A stretch of DNA of 64,000 bases. Origin: Phaeospirillum sp. Lineage in GTDB: Bacteria; Pseudomonadota; Alphaproteobacteria; Rhodospirillales; Magnetospirillaceae. Location of the stretch: contig JAUSFB010000068.1 of assembly GCA_030651575.1 (NCBI GenBank), positions 124,001-188,000 of the forward strand, given 5' to 3'. Shown one piece after another: positions 8,908-34,290 of the stretch. The notes beneath the pieces are model-generated. The model was not told the DNA's origin. It saw only the letters and a program-made list of their open reading frames with translations, and searched no databases. Position 1 is the stretch's first letter, and every line of letters begins with the position of its first letter. The position numbers were made by a program, and so were the translations under genes.

Positions 8908-9046
8908 AAGGTGGTTGGTTTAACACCGCGCCAGCGGCTTCGTTCAATCTCCGCATGGGGCTCGGTCGATGGGCCCTGGCGTTATCTCCCACGGCTCTGC
9001 TTGCTATCGTCGCCCGGTTCTGGCATCAAAATCAGATAGGATTTGA

Positions 9047-9075
9047 CTAATGACCAAATTTTCTCGGGTCATTAG
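9047..9075. repeat. Inverted repeat in the leader of the FemAB-like gene
   Basis: CTAATGACC and GGTCATTAG form 9-bp perfect arms around an 11-base AT-rich loop, about 70 bp before the preferred start codon. It may be an operator or an RNA hairpin. It lies close to where base composition shifts from GC-rich nif DNA to AT-rich DNA, so it could also mark an old insertion edge. Confidence 0.5.
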
Positions 9076-9142
9076 CCACCAGACGATAGCGTTTTCCGAT
9101 GAATTTCTATGCGGTGTGGAACATCCCCCACAGGAGGATTCG

Positions 9143-10543
9143 ATGATTTGCAATTTAAAAGAAGAGGTGAAGCCAGTTAGTATATTGGACAGCGTTCTTT
9201 CTAGCCTTATTATTTCTGGAGATTCAAGTGGGTTATCTAAAATTGATGGCGGGATTCCTCCGCATATAGCAGAGTTATTTAGCCTAGCAATTTCAAATAC
9301 GGCTTCGATAAATCAATATTATGATCTGATTAATATCATGGCACGAGATGGACTGGTGTCAACCATCCTTGCCATGGCCGATTTGGCAATTTCAAGGTGC
9401 CCTCCGGTAGCATCGATTACTGCCGTGTTCTTTAAGATAAGAGAATCCGTCGAAGAGCAAGCTGGGATGAGGTGGGCTGCCGCCGTAGATCGACGGATCA
9501 GTCAGCGCCTCACCGATCAGATAAACCGAGATGAAGAACTCCCCGTTCCCGAGGATAGCCGCCTGCAAATTGTGGATGCGTGGAATCAGCCCGATGAATT
9601 TGCCCATCTTTCTCGCCATTATACGTCTGATATACTATTAAGCGACCCTCTTCGCGATCCCATAATTACTAAACGCAACCATTTTTTGGGTGAGTTAAAG
9701 CCAGTGCAGGGCGTGCATGTTGATTTTTCATTCTTTGTCCTTGATAGCGATGACAGCCCTATTCTTCAGGTTGAGTGTGACACTTCACATTGCAATGCCC
9801 CTCTTCGATGCCGCGAGTCTCCAATCCTGATCGTTGCATTTACCGATGATCAGCAACTTATTGATATTGCAGTAAAGCTTGCCGTGGATCAAATGCTTTG
9901 GATAAATTCATGGGCAGGGACGCGCGGAATACATATTGATTATGATGTAAGTACGGATGTAGGCAGGGCTTTGCAAAAAATAGCCCACCCGATTGCTTCT
10001 GGGCTGATCCATATGAAGCGAGGATCGGTAAGTCTACTGAGAGATATTAATGATATTTTTAATTCATACCGTCAGAACCACAAGAGATCGATTAGAAAGT
10101 GTATGAAGTATGTTTCTATAGACTATGTAGATAATTCAGATAATGCCGCTGTTATTCTTTATTCTGAATTACACAGAAAAATAAACAGGACGCCTGCGCT
10201 GAGTTGTGCTCGTCTTGCCGAGATATTGAGCTATAATGGCTGTCGTTTATATGGAGCCTATTATGATAAAGACCCTGTTGGTTTCGCACTGATAACGGGG
10301 CATGGACGTGTTGCGTATTATGCAGCAGGAATCATGTCGGGGCCGGACAATATACCAATAGGGCATGCATTGATCCATCAGGCAATTCATGGAGCAAAGA
10401 ATGATGGATTTATTAAATTTGATTTTGGTCTCCTTGATGTTATGAGCGAATGTGATCAAAAATTATTGAATATAACGAATTTTAAGCTTGGATTCTGTAA
10501 TGAAGTTTCTGACAGAATAACTCTTAATTCGAATGTCATGTAA
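9143..10543 (+). CDS. FemAB/GNAT-like acyltransferase-fold protein, AT-rich insert in the nif cluster
   Basis: A 466-aa protein. The C-terminal half has the look of the FemAB/BioF2-like GNAT fold: a basic Y-R-Q-N-H-K-R-S-I-R-K helix, L-Y-G-A-Y-Y-D-K-D-P-V-G-F-A-L, a glycine-poor acyl-CoA loop, and D-F-G-L-L followed by N-F-K-L-G-F. Such proteins transfer aminoacyl or acyl groups; the substrate here is unknown. The N-terminal half is unrecognised. I chose the ATG at 9143 because AGGAGG sits five bases upstream; a frame from 9050 lacks this. The gene is plainly AT-rich, uses rare codons such as ATA and AGA, and runs against its nif neighbours, so acquisition by transfer is likely. Confidence 0.6.
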   Translation: MICNLKEEVKPVSILDSVLSSLIISGDSSGLSKIDGGIPPHIAELFSLAISNTASINQYYDLINIMARDGLVSTILAMADLAISRCPPVASITAVFFKIRESVEEQAGMRWAAAVDRRISQRLTDQINRDEELPVPEDSRLQIVDAWNQPDEFAHLSRHYTSDILLSDPLRDPIITKRNHFLGELKPVQGVHVDFSFFVLDSDDSPILQVECDTSHCNAPLRCRESPILIVAFTDDQQLIDIAVKLAVDQMLWINSWAGTRGIHIDYDVSTDVGRALQKIAHPIASGLIHMKRGSVSLLRDINDIFNSYRQNHKRSIRKCMKYVSIDYVDNSDNAAVILYSELHRKINRTPALSCARLAEILSYNGCRLYGAYYDKDPVGFALITGHGRVAYYAAGIMSGPDNIPIGHALIHQAIHGAKNDGFIKFDFGLLDVMSECDQKLLNITNFKLGFCNEVSDRITLNSNVM

Positions 10544-10608
10544 TATCGGGATGTGGTTGGCCGCCTGAGGGACCTGGAGATCGGTTCCGGTCACCGGAAT
10601 TGTCCCAA

Positions 10609-10638
10609 AAGCCCCGGAGCGTTGCCGCTCCGGGGCTT
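10609..10638 (-). terminator. Intrinsic terminator after nifHDK
   Basis: A 13-bp perfect stem (AAGCCCCGGAGCG with its complement) and 4-base loop start 28 bp beyond the nifK stop. On the minus strand the stem runs into TTTT. It would end nifHDK transcription before it runs antisense into the AT-rich gene, and may also serve that gene from the other side. Confidence 0.85.
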
Positions 10639-10665
10639 GGGTCTCACCCGCCGGGAGGTTGGGAA

Positions 10666-12201
10666 TCAGCGGGTGAGGTCGAACGAGATGTCGCTGGCGG
10701 CATCGGTCATTTCGAAGATCCGGTCGAGGATCTCCACCAGGACACGGAGAGCACCCTGATAGCCCAGGGTGGGGAAGCGGTGGTGGTGGTGGCGGTCGAA
10801 GATCGGGAAGGTGAGACGGATCAGCGGAATGCCGGTGTCTTTTTCCAGATATTTGCCGTAGGAGCTGCCGATCAGCAGGTCGGTCGGCTCGGTGAACAGC
10901 AGCGAGCGCATGTGCCACAGATCCTTGCCGGCCCAGGCCTTGCAGTTGGCGCCGAACTGCGAGGTGGCGAACAGGGCTTCCATTTTGGTAGCCCAGTCCT
11001 TGCCGCCGTTGGTGGACAGGCAGTGGGTCGGTTCGCAGCCCATCTCCAGCAGGAAGGCGGCCATGCCGTGGACGAAGTCGGGGTCTCCGAACACGGCGAC
11101 CTTCTTGCCGTGCAGATAGGCCTGACTGTCGGCCATGGCGTCCACCAGCCGGCCGCGCTCCTTCTCGATGCTGTCGGGGATCGGTTTGCCCGACAGTTCC
11201 GAGATTTTCATCAGCAGGGCGTCGGTGCCGCCGACCCCCATGGGATAGTGGAACGCGGTGGTCGGCTGGCCTTTGGCGCCGATGTATTCCAGGCTCTTGT
11301 CCGAGCAGTATTGTTGCAGGGCGATGGTGGCCTTGGCGTTGATGGCGTCGCGGGCGTCGTCCAGCTTGGTGCCGCCGTCATACATGCGGTAGGTGCCGTC
11401 TGAGGGTGTGTCGTAGACGTCGGACACGTCGCTGAGAAAGGTGTAGTCCACCCCCATCGTGTCCAGATAGCGTTTGATCTCGCGGTTGTTGGCTACGGCA
11501 TAGCCGTCGAAGCCGGGGATGATGTTGATCTTGCCGTTGATTTTGCCGGCCTTGAGCTCGCCCTTCTCGCGATCCCAGAAGTAATTGAGGATGCCCTTGA
11601 TCATGTTGTCGTAGCCGGTGGTGTGACTGCCGACGAAGGAGGGCGTGTGGGCGAAGGGAACCGGGAAGTCGGCCGGGACCGATTCCTTTTCCTTGGCGGT
11701 GCCGATGAAGGCGCTGAGATCGTCGCCGATGACCTCGGCCATGCAGGTGGTCGAGACCGCGATCATCTTGGGCTTGTAGAGCGCGTGGGTGTTCTGGAGT
11801 CCCTCGACCAGATTGGCCTGACCGCCGAACACCGCCGCGTCCTCGGTCATGGAGTCCGAGACGCAGGCGGCCGCTTCCTTGAAGTGGCGGGCCAGATGCG
11901 AGCGGAAATAGGCGACGCAGCCCTGGGAACCGTGCACATAGGGCATGGTCTCCTCGAACCCGGCGGCGGCGAACACCGCGCCCAGCGGCTGGCAGGCCTT
12001 GGCCGGGTTGATCACCGCCTTGGTGCGGGCGAAGTTCTTTTCGCGATAGTCCCAGGTCTTGGTGTATTCGGCCTGGGCCGCGACCGCTTCATCGGTGGGG
12101 CGGCACTCGAACTGGGCCTTCTTGGCCGCGAACATCTCCGTGTATTCGGGTTCCTTGAACAGGGAGACGTGGTCCTTGGTCTTTTCTGCGCTCTGGGGCA
12201 T
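10666..12201 (-). CDS. nifK: Nitrogenase MoFe protein beta subunit NifK
   Basis: A 511-aa beta subunit. P-cluster cysteines are seen in K-A-C-Q-P-L-G-A, H-G-S-Q-G-C-V-A-Y-F and S-T-T-C-M-A-E-V-I-G-D-D. It pairs with NifD in the alpha2-beta2 dinitrogenase that reduces N2 to NH3. It is the last gene of nifHDK, 79 bp after nifD, and is followed by a strong intrinsic terminator. Length is normal for the alphaproteobacterial form, and no damage is visible. Confidence 0.98.
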   Translation of the reverse strand: MPQSAEKTKDHVSLFKEPEYTEMFAAKKAQFECRPTDEAVAAQAEYTKTWDYREKNFARTKAVINPAKACQPLGAVFAAAGFEETMPYVHGSQGCVAYFRSHLARHFKEAAACVSDSMTEDAAVFGGQANLVEGLQNTHALYKPKMIAVSTTCMAEVIGDDLSAFIGTAKEKESVPADFPVPFAHTPSFVGSHTTGYDNMIKGILNYFWDREKGELKAGKINGKINIIPGFDGYAVANNREIKRYLDTMGVDYTFLSDVSDVYDTPSDGTYRMYDGGTKLDDARDAINAKATIALQQYCSDKSLEYIGAKGQPTTAFHYPMGVGGTDALLMKISELSGKPIPDSIEKERGRLVDAMADSQAYLHGKKVAVFGDPDFVHGMAAFLLEMGCEPTHCLSTNGGKDWATKMEALFATSQFGANCKAWAGKDLWHMRSLLFTEPTDLLIGSSYGKYLEKDTGIPLIRLTFPIFDRHHHHRFPTLGYQGALRVLVEILDRIFEMTDAASDISFDLTR

Positions 12202-25494: not shown

Positions 25495-25509
25495 ACACAT
25501 AAAATGTGT
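25495..25509. promoter_or_regulatory. Palindromic operator 1 (ACACA-N5-TGTGT)
   Basis: ACACA-TAAAA-TGTGT, 36 bp before the start codon of the XRE-Mrr-STAND gene. It has the same arms and spacer length as operator 2, 31 bp away centre to centre, so both lie on one face of the helix. Probable target of the gene's own XRE domain. Confidence 0.72.
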
Positions 25510-25525
25510 TGCACGAAACTGCGTC

Positions 25526-25540
25526 ACACATCTAGTGTGT
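25526..25540. promoter_or_regulatory. Palindromic operator 2 (ACACA-N5-TGTGT)
   Basis: ACACA-TCTAG-TGTGT, ending four bases before the ATG. A protein bound here would block transcription or initiation. With operator 1 it suggests cooperative autorepression. Confidence 0.72.
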
Positions 25541-25544
25541 GCGA

Positions 25545-28500
25545 ATGGAAAAGCTCGACCGCACACCTCCCCCCTATGCTGCCCTTGCCGAGAAGATCGT
25601 TAGGGGGAGAGCTGCTTGCGGTTTGACGCAGGCGGAACTCGCTGCCGCGTTGGGCTTCAGGCAGCAGACGGTTAGCCGATGGGAGGCCGGGACGCATCGC
25701 CCCAAGTCCGATGAACTTGGCGCTCTTGCCAAGCTGATCGGCGAGGACTTGGCGACGTTGATGGGACTAGCTGGCCATGGGGCCGTCACGCGTGGGGCTC
25801 TGCCCATGTTCCCCGTCGATGCGCTTGATCCAGCTGCCTTCGAGCATTTTGTTGCCGACGTGGTTGAGGCATTGGAGCCTGGGGCGGAGGCCAGGGTGCA
25901 GGGTGGTCGCGGACATAATCAGGCTGGAACAGATATCATCGCAACGCTTCCAGACGGCAAGCGATGGAGCCTCCAGTGCAAGCGAGTCGAGCAGTTTGGG
26001 CCGGCCGAAGCAAAGAAAGCAATTGCCAAGCACGAGGTGATGGCGGATCGAAAATTCCTGGTACTTAGTAAGGTTGCGTCACCAGCCTTGGCGAAGGAGG
26101 TTGAGGCCCGTGAAGGCTGGACCCTGTGGGATCAGCAGGACCTGACGCGAGTAATCCGTTCCCTTGCCATGGTGAAGCAGGAACGTTTGGTCGATATCTA
26201 TTTTCCAGGCCAGCGCATGGCTTTGCTCGGTCGGCATGAGCCGGGGCCGTGGCGCACGGACGAAGAGTATTTTAGGCCTTTTGAAGGCAGGCAGGGCGCC
26301 ATCAGTCATGACTGGGCCTTGGTTGGCCGCCAGGAAGAGATCGCGACCCTGGGCGCGGCGCTGTCGGACGATGCCTCGCGGATTTCCCTGCTGGTAGGGG
26401 CGGCTGGCATGGGCAAGACCCGCCTGCTCAAGGAGGTTGTCCGCCAATATCGAGCCGAGTATCCCGAGGTGGATATCCATTTCCTCGCTTCATCGCAGGA
26501 CCCCACCGCTTCCAGCCTTGCCGATCTGGGGCAGGCTCCAAAGCTTTTGGTGGTGGATGATGCCCATGATCGTGATGGACTGCCGCTGGTCATCGAATAT
26601 GTTCTGAGGGATGGAAACGCCCGCCTACTGATCGCGACACGCCGCTATGCCGAGCAGCGCATCCTCAATGAACTCTCTTGTTACAACATCGTTGAACCGC
26701 ACCGCGTGGCCCTGGATCGCTTGACCAAACCGGTGCTGCGCGAATTGGTGATCGAGGTCTTAGAGGAGTTCGGCGGCTATCCGCAGTGGGCAGATGCAGT
26801 CCTATCGGTGGCGTCTGACAATCCGCTGGTCGCCGCCATGGCTGCCCGCGTTGTCGCCCGGGATGGAAAGATTCCGGACCTGGCCGTTCGAGAAGGTGAG
26901 TTGCAGCGAATCATTCTGTCGCGATTCGCGGAAGACATTATTGGGCATATCGGCATGCAGCGTGACGCAGACATGCTCGGCAATGTCCTCAACGTGTTGG
27001 CTCTGATCCAGCCCTTTCACATCGATGACCGGCGAGTTGCGGAGTTGGTTGCCGTAGCCTATCCCGGTATTGCCGCGACAGACGTGACCCGCGCACTCAG
27101 GCAGTTTGTTGATGGTGGGGTGATCTATAAGCGTGGGCAGCTATATCGTCTGATGCCCGATCTGTTGGGCGATTTTCTCATCGACCGGAGTTGTATTGGG
27201 GCTGACACACGATTGACCCCATTCGCCATGCAGATCGCCGATGCGGTCGAAGGTGACCGTCTAACCCAGGTTTTAGTTAATCTTGGCAGAATGGATTGGC
27301 GGCGAGTCGGAGGCGATCCGTCAAATAGTGACCTGCTTGACCCTATTTGGCGGAAACTGCACATCAGCGAAGATCGGTATGATCGGCGGATCGCGGCTGT
27401 CCGGGCCGTCGCTTATTATCAGCCACGCCAGGCTTTGGATTTCATCCAGGCCCGGATTGAGCACGGCACCATCCCGCGCGAGGTAGGCGATATTCTGAAG
27501 CGGGTTGCCTATACACCCGAATATCGCGCTGACGCGCTACGGCTGCTTTGGGATCTGGGGCGGGATGACAAACGCGCCCTGAATTCCAATACAGATCACC
27601 CCATACGGGTGTTGGCTGAACTGGTCAGCTATGAACGGAATAAGCCGCTTTCCGTCAATCAGGAGGTGGCCGATTTCGGTCTTTCCTTGCTAGACCAGCC
27701 GGATGCCTGGACAGGCCACTATACCCCGTTTGATGTCCTGGAAGCTCTGCTGAAGGGCGAAGGGATGGAGGCTGAATCAAGGGGGCGATCTGTCGCCTTT
27801 GGTTCCTTTCTGGTCGATTATGATCGGGTGGCGCATCTGCGTGCTCAGGTAATTGATCGGACCTTTGGTCTGCTCATTGATGAAAGGCCTCAGGTGGCTT
27901 ACCTAGCCGCTACATTTTTGAGCCATGCCTTACGTGGACCTATGGGGTTGATGGGAAATTCTCCCGATGAGGAAACCCTGAAGCGCTATGATGTGGAATT
28001 CGGCCGCACGATTACCCGTATCGAGGAATTTATCGCGGAAGGGCGGTTGGCGCCAACCACAGTGATCGGCTTGGTTCGTTCTCTGGACTGGTACGCAAGC
28101 TATCATAAGGGGGACCTCGGCGATCAGGTCCGCACGATCTTTAATACCCTTCCGTCCGACCTCGAATTTCGCATTCGCGCCGCTCTGGTGGACGAGGCCG
28201 GATGGGACTTCGTTGGACAGGTCCGCTATTCCGAGTGGGACGAGGAGCGAGGCCATGATCTCCACTGGTTGGGCGGGCTGGTTAACGAAATCCTGATCGC
28301 CTACCCAGACCGTCGATCTCTCTGCGACCATTTCCTCGAAATGTGTGGGGAAATTCAATCGGCCGGGATGTCGGCGAACTCTGCTCGTCGCCTGATGGAT
28401 GCTTTGATAACGGCAGATCCTGAAATTAGCCATATCATCATCGAACGTTCCCTGGCCGAGGCCAATACCCAGATACGAGATTATCTTGGGCTGGCGGTCG

Positions 28501-29579
28501 GGGCGCTATTGGAGTCATCAGCGGAAGAGGCGAGACTGCTGATATCGCAGATGATTACGTCCCCAGAACCTCAAATCCGTACCGGTGGGGCTGGGGCGCT
28601 GTTCGCATTGCGGCGTACCAAGACTCCGGCCGACATTGACCTGTTACGCCAAGTGCTGAACTCGGAAGACCCGCAGGTGGTATCCATCGGTATTGCTGTG
28701 TTGAAATGCCGGGACGGTGTGGACGAAAGAACACTGGTGCGGCTAGCTCTGGCTATTCCGTTGGACCGCATGCCAAGGCTTTTGGAGGACGTCTGCTCGC
28801 TGTTTTGCCACTCGAATCAGGAGAGTCTGGACCGCCTATCCGTGACTGAGGTTCAGGGCCTGTTGGGGCAAATGATCAGGGTGCCCCGCATCGACGACTA
28901 TTGGGCCAAGAAGATGCTAAAGGGGCTTTCTCAACGGCATGGCCTTCTGGTGGCAGAATTCCTCCTTGCCCGTGTCGATGTGCTTTTGGGGGGGGGAGCC
29001 CCGGAAGACTTCCGGGCTGTGGACTTTGCGTGGTCTGAGCACTGTCTGGGCCTCGAGGAATCACCGGCATCCGGGGCGATCTTGGCGTTTGTCTGGCAAT
29101 GGTTGAGTGCCCATGACGATGATGATGGGGCAGCGCCCTATTGGATCGGGCAGTCCCTCGCCGCCATGTTCAGGCTTGATAGTCCCCCGGTTGTGGCGTT
29201 TCTATTATCCCGGCTGGATCATGCTGCCAGCAAGGAGTTGCGTTGGATCGGCCAGATCCTACGTCATTCCAACCACCGCTTCGTATTCGAGCAAAATACG
29301 TTTGTCGTTCGCTATCTGGAGCGCTGTAAGGCCATCGATGCGGAGTTACTCCGCTTTGCCCGAAGCGAACTGTATTGCGCATCGGTTTCCGGCATGTGGT
29401 CCAGTGCGCCAGGCGAGCCAGCTTCGCGCGATGTTGAGGCACGGGATGGTGCCGAAGCCATGCTCTCCTGCCTTTCCCGCCTATCCCCTGCCTATAAGCT
29501 CTATCAGGATCTGCTCGATCACGCGAACCAGAGAATCAAGGAGGCACTCGCCGAAGCCGAGGCGTGGGAGGAGGAATGA
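25545..29579 (+). CDS. XRE-HTH / Mrr nuclease / STAND NTPase defence-like protein
   Basis: A 1,344-aa four-part protein. About 15-65: XRE helix-turn-helix (L-T-Q-A-E-L-A-A-A-L-G-F-R-Q-Q-T-V-S-R-W-E-A-G). About 97-205: Mrr-type PD-(D/E)xK nuclease with E100, D130 and Q144-C-K146. About 258-450: P-loop NTPase with Walker A G-A-A-G-M-G-K-T (285-292) and Walker B L-L-V-V-D-D-A-H (334-341). From about 500 to the end: helical repeats suited to ligand sensing. The nuclease-STAND-repeat plan is that of Avs anti-phage sensors, which recognise a phage protein and then cut DNA; this role is inference. The fused HTH is unusual. The ATG at 25545 is preferred. The next gene overlaps the stop as ATGA. Confidence 0.85.
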   Translation: MEKLDRTPPPYAALAEKIVRGRAACGLTQAELAAALGFRQQTVSRWEAGTHRPKSDELGALAKLIGEDLATLMGLAGHGAVTRGALPMFPVDALDPAAFEHFVADVVEALEPGAEARVQGGRGHNQAGTDIIATLPDGKRWSLQCKRVEQFGPAEAKKAIAKHEVMADRKFLVLSKVASPALAKEVEAREGWTLWDQQDLTRVIRSLAMVKQERLVDIYFPGQRMALLGRHEPGPWRTDEEYFRPFEGRQGAISHDWALVGRQEEIATLGAALSDDASRISLLVGAAGMGKTRLLKEVVRQYRAEYPEVDIHFLASSQDPTASSLADLGQAPKLLVVDDAHDRDGLPLVIEYVLRDGNARLLIATRRYAEQRILNELSCYNIVEPHRVALDRLTKPVLRELVIEVLEEFGGYPQWADAVLSVASDNPLVAAMAARVVARDGKIPDLAVREGELQRIILSRFAEDIIGHIGMQRDADMLGNVLNVLALIQPFHIDDRRVAELVAVAYPGIAATDVTRALRQFVDGGVIYKRGQLYRLMPDLLGDFLIDRSCIGADTRLTPFAMQIADAVEGDRLTQVLVNLGRMDWRRVGGDPSNSDLLDPIWRKLHISEDRYDRRIAAVRAVAYYQPRQALDFIQARIEHGTIPREVGDILKRVAYTPEYRADALRLLWDLGRDDKRALNSNTDHPIRVLAELVSYERNKPLSVNQEVADFGLSLLDQPDAWTGHYTPFDVLEALLKGEGMEAESRGRSVAFGSFLVDYDRVAHLRAQVIDRTFGLLIDERPQVAYLAATFLSHALRGPMGLMGNSPDEETLKRYDVEFGRTITRIEEFIAEGRLAPTTVIGLVRSLDWYASYHKGDLGDQVRTIFNTLPSDLEFRIRAALVDEAGWDFVGQVRYSEWDEERGHDLHWLGGLVNEILIAYPDRRSLCDHFLEMCGEIQSAGMSANSARRLMDALITADPEISHIIIERSLAEANTQIRDYLGLAVGALLESSAEEARLLISQMITSPEPQIRTGGAGALFALRRTKTPADIDLLRQVLNSEDPQVVSIGIAVLKCRDGVDERTLVRLALAIPLDRMPRLLEDVCSLFCHSNQESLDRLSVTEVQGLLGQMIRVPRIDDYWAKKMLKGLSQRHGLLVAEFLLARVDVLLGGGAPEDFRAVDFAWSEHCLGLEESPASGAILAFVWQWLSAHDDDDGAAPYWIGQSLAAMFRLDSPPVVAFLLSRLDHAASKELRWIGQILRHSNHRFVFEQNTFVVRYLERCKAIDAELLRFARSELYCASVSGMWSSAPGEPASRDVEARDGAEAMLSCLSRLSPAYKLYQDLLDHANQRIKEALAEAEAWEEE

Positions 29580-30013
29580 CCTCTACGCGTGCCCGTGAGC
29601 GGCTTCGGCAAGAGCAGGAGGTTTTTGAACTGACGAAGTTGCATGCTGCTCGTTGGTTCACCCTTCGCCTGACGATGGGGTATGCAGTTATCGGCTTGCT
29701 TGTCTTGATTTCCCTGGTGGCTGGCTACGTATTATTACACCCAGAGGGGTATTCGTCTTCAACAATCATGGCTGCTGCAACTGCTTTGCTGGCCGATATG
29801 CTTGGTCTCTGTATCAGCATTTTCAACGGCCTCTCCCTGAAAGCGCCTGGAGCGCCTAATCCGGGCAACACTCAAACCGGTGTTCCAAGCGGCGACAGGG
29901 AGTTTGTCCGGATATCTTCTGCTCGCACCCATTCCTGGTCAATGGCGCGGCTGCGGCAGCGATCAAGGAGCGGGGCGATGATCGGGTCAGAAGAGGTGAA
30001 ACCTCTGTCCTGA
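29576..30013 (+). CDS. Two-helix membrane protein coupled to the STAND gene
   Basis: A 145-aa protein whose ATG overlaps the STAND stop (ATGA), with GGAGGAGG upstream, so translation is coupled. A charged N-terminal helix (R-A-R-E-R-L-R-Q-E-Q-E-V-F-E-L-T-K) precedes two membrane segments (about 35-54 and 63-86). Residues after about 100 are basic and low in complexity, and are read antisense to the end of the DUF2220-like frame; they may be added sequence from a deletion junction. It may anchor, restrain or execute the STAND response. Function is inferred from coupling only. Confidence 0.65.
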   Translation: MTSTRARERLRQEQEVFELTKLHAARWFTLRLTMGYAVIGLLVLISLVAGYVLLHPEGYSSSTIMAAATALLADMLGLCISIFNGLSLKAPGAPNPGNTQTGVPSGDREFVRISSARTHSWSMARLRQRSRSGAMIGSEEVKPLS

Positions 30014-31590
30014 CCCGCCTTGCCGGTGAGGCTAACGTAAGGGTGTCCCCCGCCAGCCTTCAGATGGGCCAGCATTGGAAAATAGATGGCAGACAAGCGT
30101 AGCGCCGGCAGGCGCGCCCGCGCGCGCATGAATATTTGGAACCCTGCAATGTCCAGATCGCCCCACAGAAATAGATTTGGATGATTGAGTAGGGCCGTAA
30201 GGGGCGGCGGGTTGCCGGCACGTACGGCCGATATGGTTGTCGGGCTCTCCAGTCCGTCAATCAGCCTTTCACCGACGTCCAGGGCGGATGCGCCAAACCC
30301 ATACGCGGACACCTTCACCGGTCGCCAAGTGATGGCGATGCCGTATTGCTGGCAGGCTTTGTCCAGGGTCTTACTGTGGAACTCCTTACCGTTGTCGGCA
30401 TGAATGCGGCGGGGCAGGCCCCAGACAGGCCAGCGGCCCTTGATGCCCAGGCGGTCGAGATGGGCATCCTTGTCCAAGGCCGAGCGGGCGATGCACATGC
30501 CCACCGAGAATGCGTTGGGCGGATCAAGGGAGAGATAGAAGCCGGTCACCATGCGGCTGTAGACGTCGATGGCCAGGGTCAGGTTCGGGCGACCGATGGG
30601 CTGACGTGTGTCGTCATCGACCAAATCGATGTCCAGTCTGGTGTGATCGATCTGCACGACGGCCAGGGGGAAGTCGGCGCCGGGAAAGGCCCCTTTTACC
30701 TCGGCGAAGCGGTCGCGCGCCGCCTTTCGGCCTTTGCGGCGCCGGAGCTTCAGTTCTTCTGGGACGGCATCCAGGCGGCGACGGAAAGTTTCCTCGTGCG
30801 GCGGCTTCCGGCGGATGCCGGCACACAGGCGTTTCAGCGTCTCGTAAGCTTTGCGCGGGCTGAGGTTCTGCTTGGTCAGGTAAAAGTCCTCGATGACCTT
30901 GGCGACCAGGGCCTCCACCTCGGGATGCAGCCGTGTCGGCATGGGGCGCTTGCGCCGCTGCGGCGCCAGGTCGGAGAGCAGTTCCCTGGCCTCGTAATTG
31001 TGCAGCCAGCGCTCGATGGTCCGCCGTCCGAGGCCATATTCGGTGGCGATAGCATCGATGGCCTTGGTTCGTCCCCGGCCGATGGAGAGCAATGGCTTGA
31101 TGACCTCAAGGCGCCGCTTGGCCTCGGCCAGATCGTCCTCGTCCAGGCTGTCGATGGCCGGGGGCGGGGCTTCGGCCGGATCGGAGTCCGCCTTCAGGTC
31201 GGCAATGTCGAACACTTCCTTGCGGTGGGTGTCCTTGTCGGTGGCCACCTGGAACTGCCAGCCGCGATCACGGCCGTAGGCCTCTGCCGCCGCGAATTTG
31301 GGGCGCAGGATGTCCGCCTGGGTGGCAAGGTCGGCCTGATACTTCACCTCGACCAGATCGGGCGGCCTGGGCTCGCGCCAGGTGACCAGGAAGTCGGGGG
31401 TGTAACGGCGTCCGCCGGGGACCGGAATCATCACCGGCTGTTCCTCGATGCCGGCAAAATCCGGCTCGAAACGGCAAAGCAGGACGAAGTCCCGCTCCAG
31501 CGAGGATTCAACCGCGACGCTCCTCTGTCCGTCCACGGGCTGCCGCCCGGTGACGCTGCGGTGGCTTCTGGGGATCGACCGAACCGGCAT
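29872..31590 (-). CDS. Chimeric TnsA-TnsB transposase fused to a DUF2220/JetD-like C-terminus
   Basis: A 572-aa frame of three parts. About 25-150: TnsA-like endonuclease (S-L-E-R-D-F, Y-T-P-D-F-L-V, L-V-E-V-K-Y). About 155-426: TnsB with helix-turn-helix and the first two DDE acids (V-V-Q-I-D-H-T and H-A-D-N-G-K-E-F). At residue 427 (base 30,312), just after I-T-W-R-P-V-K, transposase similarity stops and a TOPRIM-like DUF2220 tail begins (L-W-G-D-L-D-I-A-G-F). The catalytic glutamate of TnsB and its C-terminal domains are missing, so the protein should be unable to transpose. An in-frame internal deletion is the simplest cause. The start ATG has GGGAGG upstream. I keep it as CDS because the frame is open. 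Confidence 0.75.
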   Translation of the reverse strand: MPVRSIPRSHRSVTGRQPVDGQRSVAVESSLERDFVLLCRFEPDFAGIEEQPVMIPVPGGRRYTPDFLVTWREPRPPDLVEVKYQADLATQADILRPKFAAAEAYGRDRGWQFQVATDKDTHRKEVFDIADLKADSDPAEAPPPAIDSLDEDDLAEAKRRLEVIKPLLSIGRGRTKAIDAIATEYGLGRRTIERWLHNYEARELLSDLAPQRRKRPMPTRLHPEVEALVAKVIEDFYLTKQNLSPRKAYETLKRLCAGIRRKPPHEETFRRRLDAVPEELKLRRRKGRKAARDRFAEVKGAFPGADFPLAVVQIDHTRLDIDLVDDDTRQPIGRPNLTLAIDVYSRMVTGFYLSLDPPNAFSVGMCIARSALDKDAHLDRLGIKGRWPVWGLPRRIHADNGKEFHSKTLDKACQQYGIAITWRPVKVSAYGFGASALDVGERLIDGLESPTTISAVRAGNPPPLTALLNHPNLFLWGDLDIAGFQIFMRARARLPALRLSAIYFPMLAHLKAGGGHPYVSLTGKAGQDRGFTSSDPIIAPLLDRCRSRAIDQEWVRAEDIRTNSLSPLGTPV

Positions 31591-31629
31591 CTTGCCTCCC
31601 AAAATAATCTGGAATCCAAGCCTTGATCG

Positions 31630-32637
31630 TCAATTAGGCGAAATCATGGCAATGTTTGGTTGATGTTTGCCTTCGTGACGATCTTTCTTGAGAAGCATCA
31701 TCGGGCTGCGGCTGGTGCGTTCCAACTGCCAGCGCGACACGTCTGCTGCCTTGCAGGTCGCATGGAAGCGGAGGGGCCAGTCGTCGAGCATCCGGGCCGC
31801 CAGGGCGATCAGCAGGTGCCGGTGCCGTGGTTCGAACTGGTAGGGATCGGCCCGGATGGGAATATCCGCGAGCTGCGACAATTCATCTGGACCCTCGGCC
31901 AGTTCGGTTCTCAAGGACCGGGCGAACGAGCCCCCGGCTACCAGCCGCAGCAGCCTCAGGACCAATTCGAAGAACAAGGGCTGGCGGATCGGGCCATGGC
32001 CGGGAATGTTCACCTCACCCTGGGCGGTGGCGGTGAGCAGTCCGGCTTGGGTTGAGAGATCGGTGACGGGGACGGTTTGCACGCCCATCAGGCTGGTGCC
32101 GCATTTATGGCATTCCAGATCGGTCCTGGTGCGGATCGTCTTCAGCGGCTGGATCGGTTCACCGCAGCCGGGGCAACGGTCGCAGAGATACACCCGGTGA
32201 CGGCGGCAGGCGGTGACGAAGTACAGACGCCAGCCGAGGCGGAAGTAGGGGGCTGTATCCTCCGCCAGACACTGGGGGCAGAGCTGCTGACCGAAGCTGG
32301 GCCGGGTCCGTTCGGTTCCCACCGAGGGCAGCCAGGGCAGGCGGATGTGCCGCTCCTCGGCATCGTAGAGGTGCCCTGCCCAACGGGTGACCATGGCATC
32401 AGCCAGAATGTCGGCAGAGATGCCGGTGGCCGCCGACAGCCGGATCAGCAGGCTGCGCTCGGCCAGACGGTCGAGATCGCGGCTGTGAATCTGGGCGCCG
32501 CTGGTCGCCACGCCGTACAGTTCTGCCGGCGTCAGGCCATTGCTCCAGGCGGTCCTGGAGAACCACGACGAGAAGGTTTCTCCCGGCAACGGCCGAGGCC
32601 GCCCCGGCCACAATGGGATGGGCCGTCCGGCGTTCAT
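31630..32637 (-). CDS. tniQ: Transposition target-selection protein TniQ/TnsD
   Basis: A 335-aa TniQ-family protein. The N-terminus P-L-P-G-E-T-F-S-S-W-F-S-R-T-A and the zinc-binding region (C-P-Q-C, then H-R-V-Y-L-C-D-R-C-P-G-C-G, and C-H-K-C-G) are characteristic. TniQ links target choice to the TnsC ATPase, whose gene is not found here. The start ATG follows GAGGAA. It precedes the tnsAB chimera by 39 bp on the same strand. Its first 103 coding bases and the region upstream are duplicated at 34.1-34.3 kb. Confidence 0.9.
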   Translation of the reverse strand: MNAGRPIPLWPGRPRPLPGETFSSWFSRTAWSNGLTPAELYGVATSGAQIHSRDLDRLAERSLLIRLSAATGISADILADAMVTRWAGHLYDAEERHIRLPWLPSVGTERTRPSFGQQLCPQCLAEDTAPYFRLGWRLYFVTACRRHRVYLCDRCPGCGEPIQPLKTIRTRTDLECHKCGTSLMGVQTVPVTDLSTQAGLLTATAQGEVNIPGHGPIRQPLFFELVLRLLRLVAGGSFARSLRTELAEGPDELSQLADIPIRADPYQFEPRHRHLLIALAARMLDDWPLRFHATCKAADVSRWQLERTSRSPMMLLKKDRHEGKHQPNIAMISPN

Positions 32638-32704
32638 GGAAAATTCCTCGGATGTCTGATCGAGGAGTCACATAGGTACGCCGAAACTGACTTCAATGCG
32701 CCCA
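32525..32704. repeat. 180-bp direct repeat, copy 1 (tniQ 5' end)
   Basis: Covers the start of tniQ and about 67 bp upstream. Copy 2 at 34,111-34,290 has the same length and about nine mismatches by eye (about 95% identical). The two copies bracket the DUF3800 gene. Confidence 0.88.
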
Positions 32705-32913
32705 GACGGAGGCAGCTTAAACCTCCATTCCGAGATGGTGTGGCCATTCAGGTGGATCATGAATCACACGGGGCGCCGGTTGCCGAGTGGGACTGGAATG
32801 GGGGGGAGCTAATGCTCCCGTAGGTGCCATTAACTGGCAATTCGGAGCTGCCAAGGCTCGGCTTCACTCTGCTTCCCAAGCGTTATATCATCTTTTGGTT
32901 GATGGAGGGCGAA

Positions 32914-34062
32914 ATGGAAGTCACTCACGTTTTTTGCGACGAGGCGGGTTTTACCGGAAACCGAATGCTCGACGCTCTGCAGCCGTATTTCACTTACAGC
33001 GCTGTTGCCGTAGATCCGGCGGAAGGAGCGGAATTTGTCGCCGCGTTGATCCGAGATTTCGGGATTCAAGGAGGGGAGTTGAAAGCCGAGAGGCTGGTAA
33101 AGTTTAGCAAGGGGCGGCGGGCCTTAACCAAGGCCATTGATTGGCTTGATGGTAGGTATTCTGCTGTCTTCTATCATAAGAAGTACAATCTGGCCTGCAA
33201 GTTTTTCGAGTATATCTATGAGCCTGTTCTTCAGGCCAATAACGCTCTTTTCTATAGAAAGAACTTTCACCGCCACGTTGCCAACTGTCTTTACATGCAT
33301 TTCGAATCAAGGATGGCGGTAGCTGAAGACATCATGGCTGAATTTGAGACCTACATGCGGAAACGGGATTTGCAAGGTCTCGGGACGCTGTTTTCGACAT
33401 CCTCGTCAAATTTGGACGTAGCCGATGCCATGCAGGCGATGCTGGATTTCGCCATTGGATACCGTGACGTCATCGTGGATGAGATCGGGGGGCTGGAGGG
33501 GCCCAATGGCGTGGGGAAGTGGGTGCTCGACGTGACAACCTCTTCGGTTTTTAGCCTTCTCGCCCATCTTGGGCAGAAGCATGAAATTCTTGAGGTCTAC
33601 TGCGATCACTCGAAGCCGCTTGCGGCCGACGCTTCGTTTTTCGACGTGATGGTGAACCGGCCTGAGCGGAGGTACACCCACGCCTGGGGAAAGCGTCGCG
33701 CTCTCACATGGAATATGACGAGGCCGCTCCAACTGGTGGATTCCAAGGTTCAACCTGCCGTTCAACTGGCGGACTCTATCGCGGGGGCCTTGTGTTTCGC
33801 CCTGAAGAACCAAAGCGACCCGTCTGGCCGCGAATGGTTGGAACGGGTGATGCCGAATCTTCATGAGGACTGCGTCTATCCAGATCTTTCCGTGGTGGAT
33901 TTATCCAATGGCGAAGCTTTCACGAATGCGATTGTGCTGGTCGAGTTGGCGTCGCGGGCTCGTGAAGGAAGGGATCCGCTTGCCGACATGGAGGCTTTTT
34001 ATCGTACGGTCGAGTTCAGGCTTGCAGTTGATCCGCCAGATTTCGTCAAGTCACGGCGCTAA
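32914..34062 (+). CDS. DUF3800 domain protein
   Basis: A 382-aa protein. The N-terminal V-F-C-D-E-A-G-F-T-G-N and the internal Y-C-D-H-S-K and Q-L-A-D-S-I-A-G segments fit DUF3800, a family with a predicted RNase H-like fold common on phages and mobile elements. Activity is unproven. The ATG at 32914 follows GGAGGG; upstream in-frame codons have no comparable site. It lies between two copies of the 180-bp tniQ-end repeat, opposite in direction to tniQ, and so is probably a separately acquired cargo gene. Confidence 0.78.
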   Translation: MEVTHVFCDEAGFTGNRMLDALQPYFTYSAVAVDPAEGAEFVAALIRDFGIQGGELKAERLVKFSKGRRALTKAIDWLDGRYSAVFYHKKYNLACKFFEYIYEPVLQANNALFYRKNFHRHVANCLYMHFESRMAVAEDIMAEFETYMRKRDLQGLGTLFSTSSSNLDVADAMQAMLDFAIGYRDVIVDEIGGLEGPNGVGKWVLDVTTSSVFSLLAHLGQKHEILEVYCDHSKPLAADASFFDVMVNRPERRYTHAWGKRRALTWNMTRPLQLVDSKVQPAVQLADSIAGALCFALKNQSDPSGREWLERVMPNLHEDCVYPDLSVVDLSNGEAFTNAIVLVELASRAREGRDPLADMEAFYRTVEFRLAVDPPDFVKSRR

Positions 34063-34100: not shown

Positions 34101-34223
34101 TCAGATTTCGGCCGGCGTCAGGCTATTGCTCCAGGCTGTCCTGGAGAACCGCGACGAGAAGGTTTCTCCCGGCAACGGCCGAGGCCGCGCCGGCCACAAT
34201 GGGATGGGCCGTCCGGCGTTCAT
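34101..34223 (-). pseudogene. tniQ 5' fragment
   Basis: Encodes about 40 residues matching the start of TniQ (M-N-A-G-R-P-I-P-L-W-P), then stops after L-T-P-A-E where full tniQ continues L-Y-G. A tryptophan near residue 25 has become arginine. It lies next to the right transposon end, where tniQ would be expected, so this may be the original position and the full gene a second copy. Confidence 0.82.
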
Positions 34224-34290
34224 GGAAAATTCCTCGGAAGTCGGATCGAGGAGTCACATGGGCACGCCGAAACCGACTTCAATGCGCCCA
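34111..34290. repeat. 180-bp direct repeat, copy 2 (tniQ 5' end)
   Basis: Partner of 32,525-32,704, same orientation. Between its end and the right terminus (34,291-34,406) there are only end repeats, at 34,340, 34,361 and 34,381. Confidence 0.88.

Follow-up and report, generated by a model that had tools for sequence, protein, structure and literature searches.

How a lethal immune receptor of the NLR (nucleotide-binding, leucine-rich repeat) type is silenced until it is needed is an open question, and a gene in the 64,000-nucleotide stretch of Phaeospirillum sp. DNA analyzed here (contig JAUSFB010000068.1, positions 124,001 to 188,000; referred to as the window) raises it in compact form. 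The gene at 25545–29579 codes for a protein in which an XRE helix-turn-helix (HTH), an Mrr nuclease, a STAND NTPase, and a HEAT superhelix follow one another, and a 15 bp inverted repeat, ACACATnnnATGTGT, is located just upstream of it. From these features we infer that the locus is probably an NLR-like abortive-infection system that consists of one gene and includes its own autorepressor, acting in phage defence and binding DNA through its HTH. A DNA-cutting weapon, an infection sensor similar to the immune receptors of animals and plants, and a promoter switch would then be combined in one protein, which is unusually compact for an immune system that controls itself.

Domain architecture of the 25545–29579 product

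The reading frame runs uninterrupted from ATG to stop, and the 1,344-residue product (P0001) does join an XRE HTH, an Mrr nuclease, and a STAND NTPase in a single chain, as the sequence-only reading had claimed; the open frame, the Pfam matches, and the structural models agree on this. The features of the gene are as follows.

25545–29579, + strand: HTH-Mrr-STAND-HEAT protein, 1,344 aa; alternative in-frame start GTG at 25539
25590–25772, + strand: XRE helix-turn-helix, residues 16–76, recognition helix QQTVSRWE; HTH_3; model helices 12–76, predicted local distance difference test score (pLDDT) about 85–92
25818–26153, + strand: Mrr nuclease, residues 92–203; Mrr_cat; D130 (25932), Q144, K146 (25980)
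26319–26864, + strand: STAND NTPase core, residues 259–440; Walker A K291 (26415), Walker B DD338–339 (26556)
26865–27344, + strand: residues 441–600, helical with a winged-helix-like hairpin in the model; NLR/Apaf-1 alignments reach about residue 600
27345–29576, + strand: HEAT-like superhelix, residues 601–1344, proposed sensor; HEAT_2 at 983–1048; C-terminal model matches HEAT proteins

Profile comparison assigns the N-terminal domain to HTH_3 (residues 22–70, E 1.3e-11, 44.8 bits against a cut-off of 23) and the nuclease to Mrr_cat (residues 92–203, E 3.9e-6, 27.4 bits against 21), both above the Pfam cut-offs. HEAT_2 is matched at residues 983–1048 (30.6 bits against 27.7), and no TPR model is found among the 25 Pfam matches listed for P0001. 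The NTPase is matched by AAA_16 at residues 259–318 (30.8 bits, under the curated cut-off of 32.6) and by nSTAND_NTPase5 (PF25199) at residues 271–369 (25.0 bits, under the gathering score of 34). The E/D/QxK site of the nuclease is correctly recognized from sequence, with D130, Q144, and K146 as its residues, the last within Q144-C-K146, and so are the Walker motifs, with K291 in GAAGMGKT (Walker A) and D338 and D339 in VVDDAHDR (Walker B).

Models of P0001 (pLDDT 80.9 and 83.9) fit an HTH, an alpha/beta nuclease, an NTPase, a winged-helix-like element, and long all-helical repeats, the last corresponding, together with the HEAT_2 match, to the helical repeats that had been noted downstream of the NTPase. 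The best Foldseek matches of the C-terminal model are the HEAT superhelix proteins SF3b1, Kap121, and CAND1. Structural alignment by VIA covers mostly residues 234–597, and the nuclease profile gave zero matches to PDB sequences at E ≤ 0.1. Two PADLOC matches were rejected as assignments of P0001, RmrA covering the HTH alone, and OloA being weak and restricted to the HEAT region.

Distribution and conservation of the family

A survey of the HTH fusion gave 11 distinct HTH-bearing homologues including the window copy, with identity down to 27%, and on this sequence evidence HTH-Mrr-STAND-HEAT is a rare but conserved family. Membership excludes HTH-only, nuclease-only, and fragment matches, and L003 (a duplicate of L016) as well as L045 and L050 (the L021 and L018 genes found again) were dropped before counting. 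The homologues, including one with a truncated HTH (L015), are listed here.

L016: uncultured Rhodospirillaceae genome, same genus, 80% identity
L019: Acetobacteraceae metagenome-assembled genome (MAG), 55% identity
L014: Rhizobium etli plasmid, 52% identity
L015: Xanthobacter plasmid, 48% identity; only the HTH end is kept and the C-terminus diverges
L017: Bradyrhizobium, 34% identity
L018: Pseudoduganella, 32% identity; a second Pseudoduganella copy is L054
L020: Acidobacteria MAG, 28% identity; cut by the contig end
L021: Nocardioides, 27% identity
L024 and L051: HTH-bearing homologues in two further genomes

Full-length copies are present in two of the 55 genomes sampled from the family (matches at E ≤ 0.001 are found in 19 of these, those outside the full-length pair essentially via the HTH), in two of 317 genomes of the order, identical to the two found in the family sample, in one of 385 genomes of the class (G000, the second match being HTH-only), and in two of 398 genomes of the phylum (G000 and G791; this sample also yielded an HTH-less copy, a C-terminal fragment, and a match confined to the HTH); these samples overlap one another. 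The class of Nocardioides has a full-length copy in one of 256 genomes, with four partial matches, and the order of Pseudoduganella in two of 250, one of them carrying two copies, with two nuclease-only matches. One homologue, L025, lacks the HTH: the protein begins at the nuclease, directly behind another gene, and keeps the NTPase and HEAT region. An actinobacterial match, L046 (reverse strand), extends only from the NTPase onward (profile 232–885), with a quite different N-terminus replacing the HTH and Mrr domains, a possible effector swap judging from the sequence. The Kovacikia match H3 was rejected as a family member, being an HTH-less Mrr protein of a different build. A phage origin was also rejected, as P0001 has no match among 50,697 phage records and none was confirmed in viral contigs (two peptide patterns, 87 candidate stretches).

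The residues D130, Q144, K146, K291, D338, and D339 are invariant in all nine aligned homologues, and the three nuclease residues in all 11 rows of alignment A6. Within alignment A2, Mrr_cat and nSTAND_NTPase5 are matched in nine of nine members at E ≤ 0.01 (best nSTAND_NTPase5 3.1e-12), and HTH_3 in eight, the remaining member presumably being L015 with its truncated HTH. Compared with L016, the ratio of nonsynonymous to synonymous substitution rates (dN/dS) is 0.147 overall and 0.061 for the HTH, although the dS of the latter (2.18) is saturated. A chance fusion or frame artefact was rejected on the grounds of the ten further HTH-bearing homologues and this purifying selection. Identity to L016 is 80% in the HTH, 86% in the nuclease, 86% in the NTPase, 91% in residues 441–600, 86% in residues 601–900, and 68% in residues 901–1344, the least conserved large region, as is expected if the far end of the protein is a sensor that reads a changing partner.

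Inverted repeats upstream of the gene

An inverted repeat with 6-base arms and a 3-base gap recurs within the 220 bases upstream of nine homologues, and upstream boxes were scored against a fixed consensus, ACACATNNNATGTGT, at 12 positions. The window has two such boxes and a possible promoter directly before the gene.

25495–25509, no strand assigned: putative operator box 1, ACACATAAAATGTGT, a perfect 6-3-6 inverted repeat, 12/12 to consensus, 1 of 2,000 shuffles
25526–25540, no strand assigned: putative operator box 2, ACACATCTAGTGTGT, 11/12 to consensus, ending 4 bases before the ATG
25509–25538, + strand: possible promoter, identified by eye, with TTGCAC (25509–25514), 18 bp, and TAGTGT (25533–25538)

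The two boxes are 31 bp apart, centre to centre, and L016 has the same two-box layout, with bases between the boxes that differ in part. Across 11 loci (223,675 bases) there are 11 places that score at least 10/12, all of which start 19–56 bp before the chosen start of an HTH-bearing homologue with none elsewhere, two each in the window, L016, L014, and L019, and one each in L017, L018, and L024. Seven of the nine HTH-bearing loci of this first set carry such a box, with shuffled upstream regions equalling the score in 0–20 of 2,000, and L051, which was added once the motif had been settled, carries ACACATTTAATGAGT (11/12) abutting the ATG taken as its start, to give a strong box in eight of the 11 HTH-bearing homologues overall. 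At the HTH-less L025 and the HTH-truncated L015 the best score is 7/12, which is at chance level (651 and 755 of 2,000 shuffles).

The strict pattern ACWCATNNNATGWGT is found at one place in the 4.23 Mb host genome, at the promoter of this gene. When up to one mismatch is allowed, eight of ten places in G000, G049, the L019 genome, and the R. etli plasmid sit at this promoter (two of three in G000, two of three in G049, and both of two in each of the others). The Nocardioides homologue has its own perfect version, ACGCAGTAACTGCGT, directly before its ATG, and the pattern derived from that site, ACGCAGNNNCTGCGT, occurs once in 4.8 Mb, abutting the ATG of that homologue. Because the site is conserved, linked to the HTH, and nearly unique in the genome, we infer that the HTH acts in autorepression; P0001 has features of an XRE autorepressor of the Cro/cI type, with an HTH_3 domain and, on sequence evidence, an inverted-repeat operator at its own promoter.

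By eye, the gene-proximal box shares bases with a -10-like element, which reads TAGTGT in the window and TAATGT or TATGTG in other loci. In the window, L016, L014, L019, and L017 this element is positioned 17–18 bp after a -35-like element beginning with TTG; L024 has TTTACT. It is possible that transcription from this promoter would begin at the ATG or immediately beside it.

Several observations weigh against reading the locus as an autorepressed defence gene. The motif was derived from the window and its nearest relatives, so those loci are not independent tests, and the out-of-sample score is one of two (L051 has the box and L054 does not). Matches are weak at L020 (9/12, 44 of 2,000 shuffles), L021 (8/12, 165 of 2,000), and L054 (imperfect, 8/12), and eight later loci (31,184 bases) contain two matches of at least 10/12, one of which is a stray 10/12 inside the L054 gene. 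One-mismatch places number two in the L017 genome and two in that of L018, all away from the gene, and G791 has none; such a place is lacking at the gene in all three because their own copies carry two mismatches. A reversed-pattern control is also found once in G000 and once in the Nocardioides genome, and one-mismatch controls 0–4 times per genome, so uniqueness by itself proves little. Palindromy alone is non-significant for L014, L019, L017, L018, and L020 (142–475 of 500 shuffles equal it) and is a poor test, which is why the fixed consensus was used, and the HTH-less control consists of one close homologue and one truncated homologue. The box distances depend on the start chosen, and in five of the seven strong loci other in-frame starts are located upstream, overlapping a box or farther away, with two such starts in L051. 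A generic promoter scan called no sigma-70 site at the position of the possible promoter. Finally, autoregulation does not prove defence.

Comparison with known defence systems

Structure prediction followed by Foldseek places the N-terminal model closest to Avs4 (AVAST type 4, PDB 8dgf), its top match, with model residue 86 aligned to Avs4 residue 2 at 12–14% identity. The two proteins share an N-terminal nuclease, a STAND NTPase, and a long C-terminal repeat sensor, and to this extent the earlier view of an Avs-type protein is borne out; it does not extend to the sensor end, which is HEAT in P0001, whereas the C-terminal sensor of Avs4 is made of TPRs. The trigger of Avs4 is the phage portal protein. 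P0001 also differs in having an extra XRE HTH before the nuclease, which is therefore not at the very N-terminus, and likely an operator of its own. No Avs-named model is among the 25 PADLOC matches at E ≤ 1 for P0001, the Avs coverage of that library being unconfirmed.

In the literature cited here by PMC number, which was available as partial text, the Avs1–4 nuclease is described as cleaving phage and host DNA upon sensing of terminase, portal, or Ksap1 (PMC12931631). The clade 6 bacterial NACHT proteins bNACHT25 and bNACHT32 resemble P0001 in having a nuclease, a PD-(D/E)XK DNase, in the N-terminal part; in these two, defence requires the nuclease, and infection leads to breakdown of DNA. 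They differ from P0001 in their NTPase and C-terminal domains, and no HTH is reported for them in the text available (PMC12169576). The weak matches L052 and L053 resemble this kind by eye.

Control of a defence operon by DNA binding has precedents. In Caulobacter, the HTH repressor CdxB, a separate 132-aa protein, acts on the promoter of LypABC, an NLR-like immune module that is lethal to the cell when not kept in check (PMC13236601), and BrxR (PMC9122589) and CapK/CapS (PMC13373217) are regulators with genes of their own. In all of these bacterial cases, as far as the available text goes, the regulator is thus a separate gene, whereas the P0001 family seems to carry the repressor inside the receptor, within the sensor-effector chain. 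Limited literature searches (partial coverage, supplements excluded) found no description of the HTH-Mrr-STAND-HEAT architecture, in agreement with the sequence-only reading, which knew of no system with this order, and it is absent from the text available for PMC7159879, PMC9519451, PMC12839542, PMC13092281, and PMC3710099.

A model for P0001 action

We propose that a resting dimer of P0001 would bind one or two of the 15 bp palindromes through its N-terminal XRE HTH, so as to keep its own synthesis low. By analogy with Avs, the HEAT superhelix would sense an infection signal, probably a phage protein, and signal binding would lead to nucleotide exchange and oligomerisation of the STAND NTPase, as suggested by its fold and Walker motifs. 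The oligomer would bring the Mrr domains together such that DNA is cut, the cell is killed or arrested, and infection is stopped, as anticipated from Avs1–4 and bNACHT25/32. As a conjecture, oligomerisation may also free the HTH from its operator and give more synthesis in a feed-forward manner. A small membrane protein encoded immediately downstream is likely an accessory in three of the loci. Neighbouring genes at two homologues provide a context of defence: L014 (R. etli) is preceded by gajA and gajB (a complete Gabija system) and a HEPN/RES gene, and L018 (Pseudoduganella) has a complete type II CBASS system and a DncV-like gene upstream, with a short gene and AbiH downstream.

A stronger version, which we put forward only tentatively, is that the receptor doubles as the transcription factor of its own gene: at rest it would occupy the promoter through the fused HTH, until the STAND switch both arms the nuclease and releases the operator, so that one molecule, in three different states, would sense, kill, and amplify the response. 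If true, this circuit would be simpler than the use of separate repressors of immune operons, and the combination of one gene and a defined 15 bp operator makes the link between receptor state and expression testable.

Alternative explanations

P0001 could instead be an autoregulated toxin that acts mainly on behalf of plasmids or mobile elements, by stabilizing them or by limiting competing elements, rather than against phages. Two homologues are plasmid-borne, L021 is near a tyrosine integrase, the window copy is beside Tn7-like tnsAB and tniQ remnants, and the AbiE toxin-antitoxin locus is autorepressed through inverted repeats (PMC7319586). We nonetheless consider this unlikely, in that no separate antitoxin gene was recognized, the long, faster-changing HEAT end and the STAND switch suit the sensing of a foreign protein, and the neighbours of the homologues include Gabija and CBASS.

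Slightly less likely still is the possibility that the palindromes belong to another regulator, such as a host XRE protein, with the fused HTH serving in dimerisation or protein contact. The site accompanies the gene in different hosts, and on a plasmid as well, and is absent from the homologues whose HTH has been lost or truncated. In addition, L021 is the only one of the 11 in which R45 is replaced by T (L018 has K), and its half-site, ACGCAG, is the one that has diverged most, albeit as a single case. Such a regulator would account for the three of 11 HTH-bearing homologues without a strong site, and the recognition helix QQTVSRWE is presumably of a common XRE type.

Also unlikely is a STAND-gated restriction enzyme in which the HTH is a targeting arm guiding the nuclease to specific sites on invading DNA. 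In its favour, the XRE domain directly precedes the Mrr domain, and fusions of a winged helix to a nuclease are known to read modified DNA (PMC11037411). Against it, the site apparently used by the HTH is the promoter of its own gene and is infrequent in the rest of the host genome, so that a targeted nuclease would cleave the very gene that encodes it, and L025 has no HTH yet keeps the nuclease, NTPase, and HEAT region.

Neighbouring genes

The small membrane protein proposed as an accessory of the putatively autoregulated receptor is encoded directly after it.

29576–30013, + strand: gene for a small membrane protein with two hydrophobic stretches; its ATG (29576) overlaps the stop codon of the main gene

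A small membrane protein is located at the same place in L016 (73% identity) and L019 (53%), and matches are present in three of 314 genomes of the order, two of which are the two genomes with the main gene. It has no Pfam family above cut-off and no plasmid match. The C-terminal tail in the window is unlike those of L016 and L019 and is close to the start of the transposon remnant. The third match, L030 (reverse strand, in G017, of the same family), is a fragment of about 37 residues in frame with unrelated sequence, and G017 has no match to the main protein; the fragment is perhaps a relic of a lost locus, as read from its sequence. In L017 and L024 the gene after the main one codes for another protein, 54 residues long and with a single hydrophobic stretch, and neither small protein was seen by eye after the main gene in L014, L018, L021, L051, and L054. 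Directly downstream of the R. etli homologue (L014:13024–14244) is a gene whose 406-aa product weakly matches a CAP12/Pycsar TIR domain, below the cut-off (E 0.009).

The next genes in the window are remnants of a Tn7-like transposon (tnsAB, tniQ) and of Wadjet JetD. A single frame at 29872–31602 (- strand) joins a TnsA-like N-terminus, a truncated TnsB (profile 40–312 of 621), and the end of JetD (295–384 of 387), and looks from its sequence like a deletion scar fusing a Tn7-like transposase to the relic of another defence system. The TniQ gene is at 31630–32637 (- strand), and its 5' end is contained in a 184-nt direct repeat, 95% identical (32521–32704 and 34107–34290), that flanks a DUF3800 gene at 32824–34062. 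Elsewhere in the window, at 9001–11000, the G+C content falls to 47%, compared with 56–69% in other 2 kb stretches.

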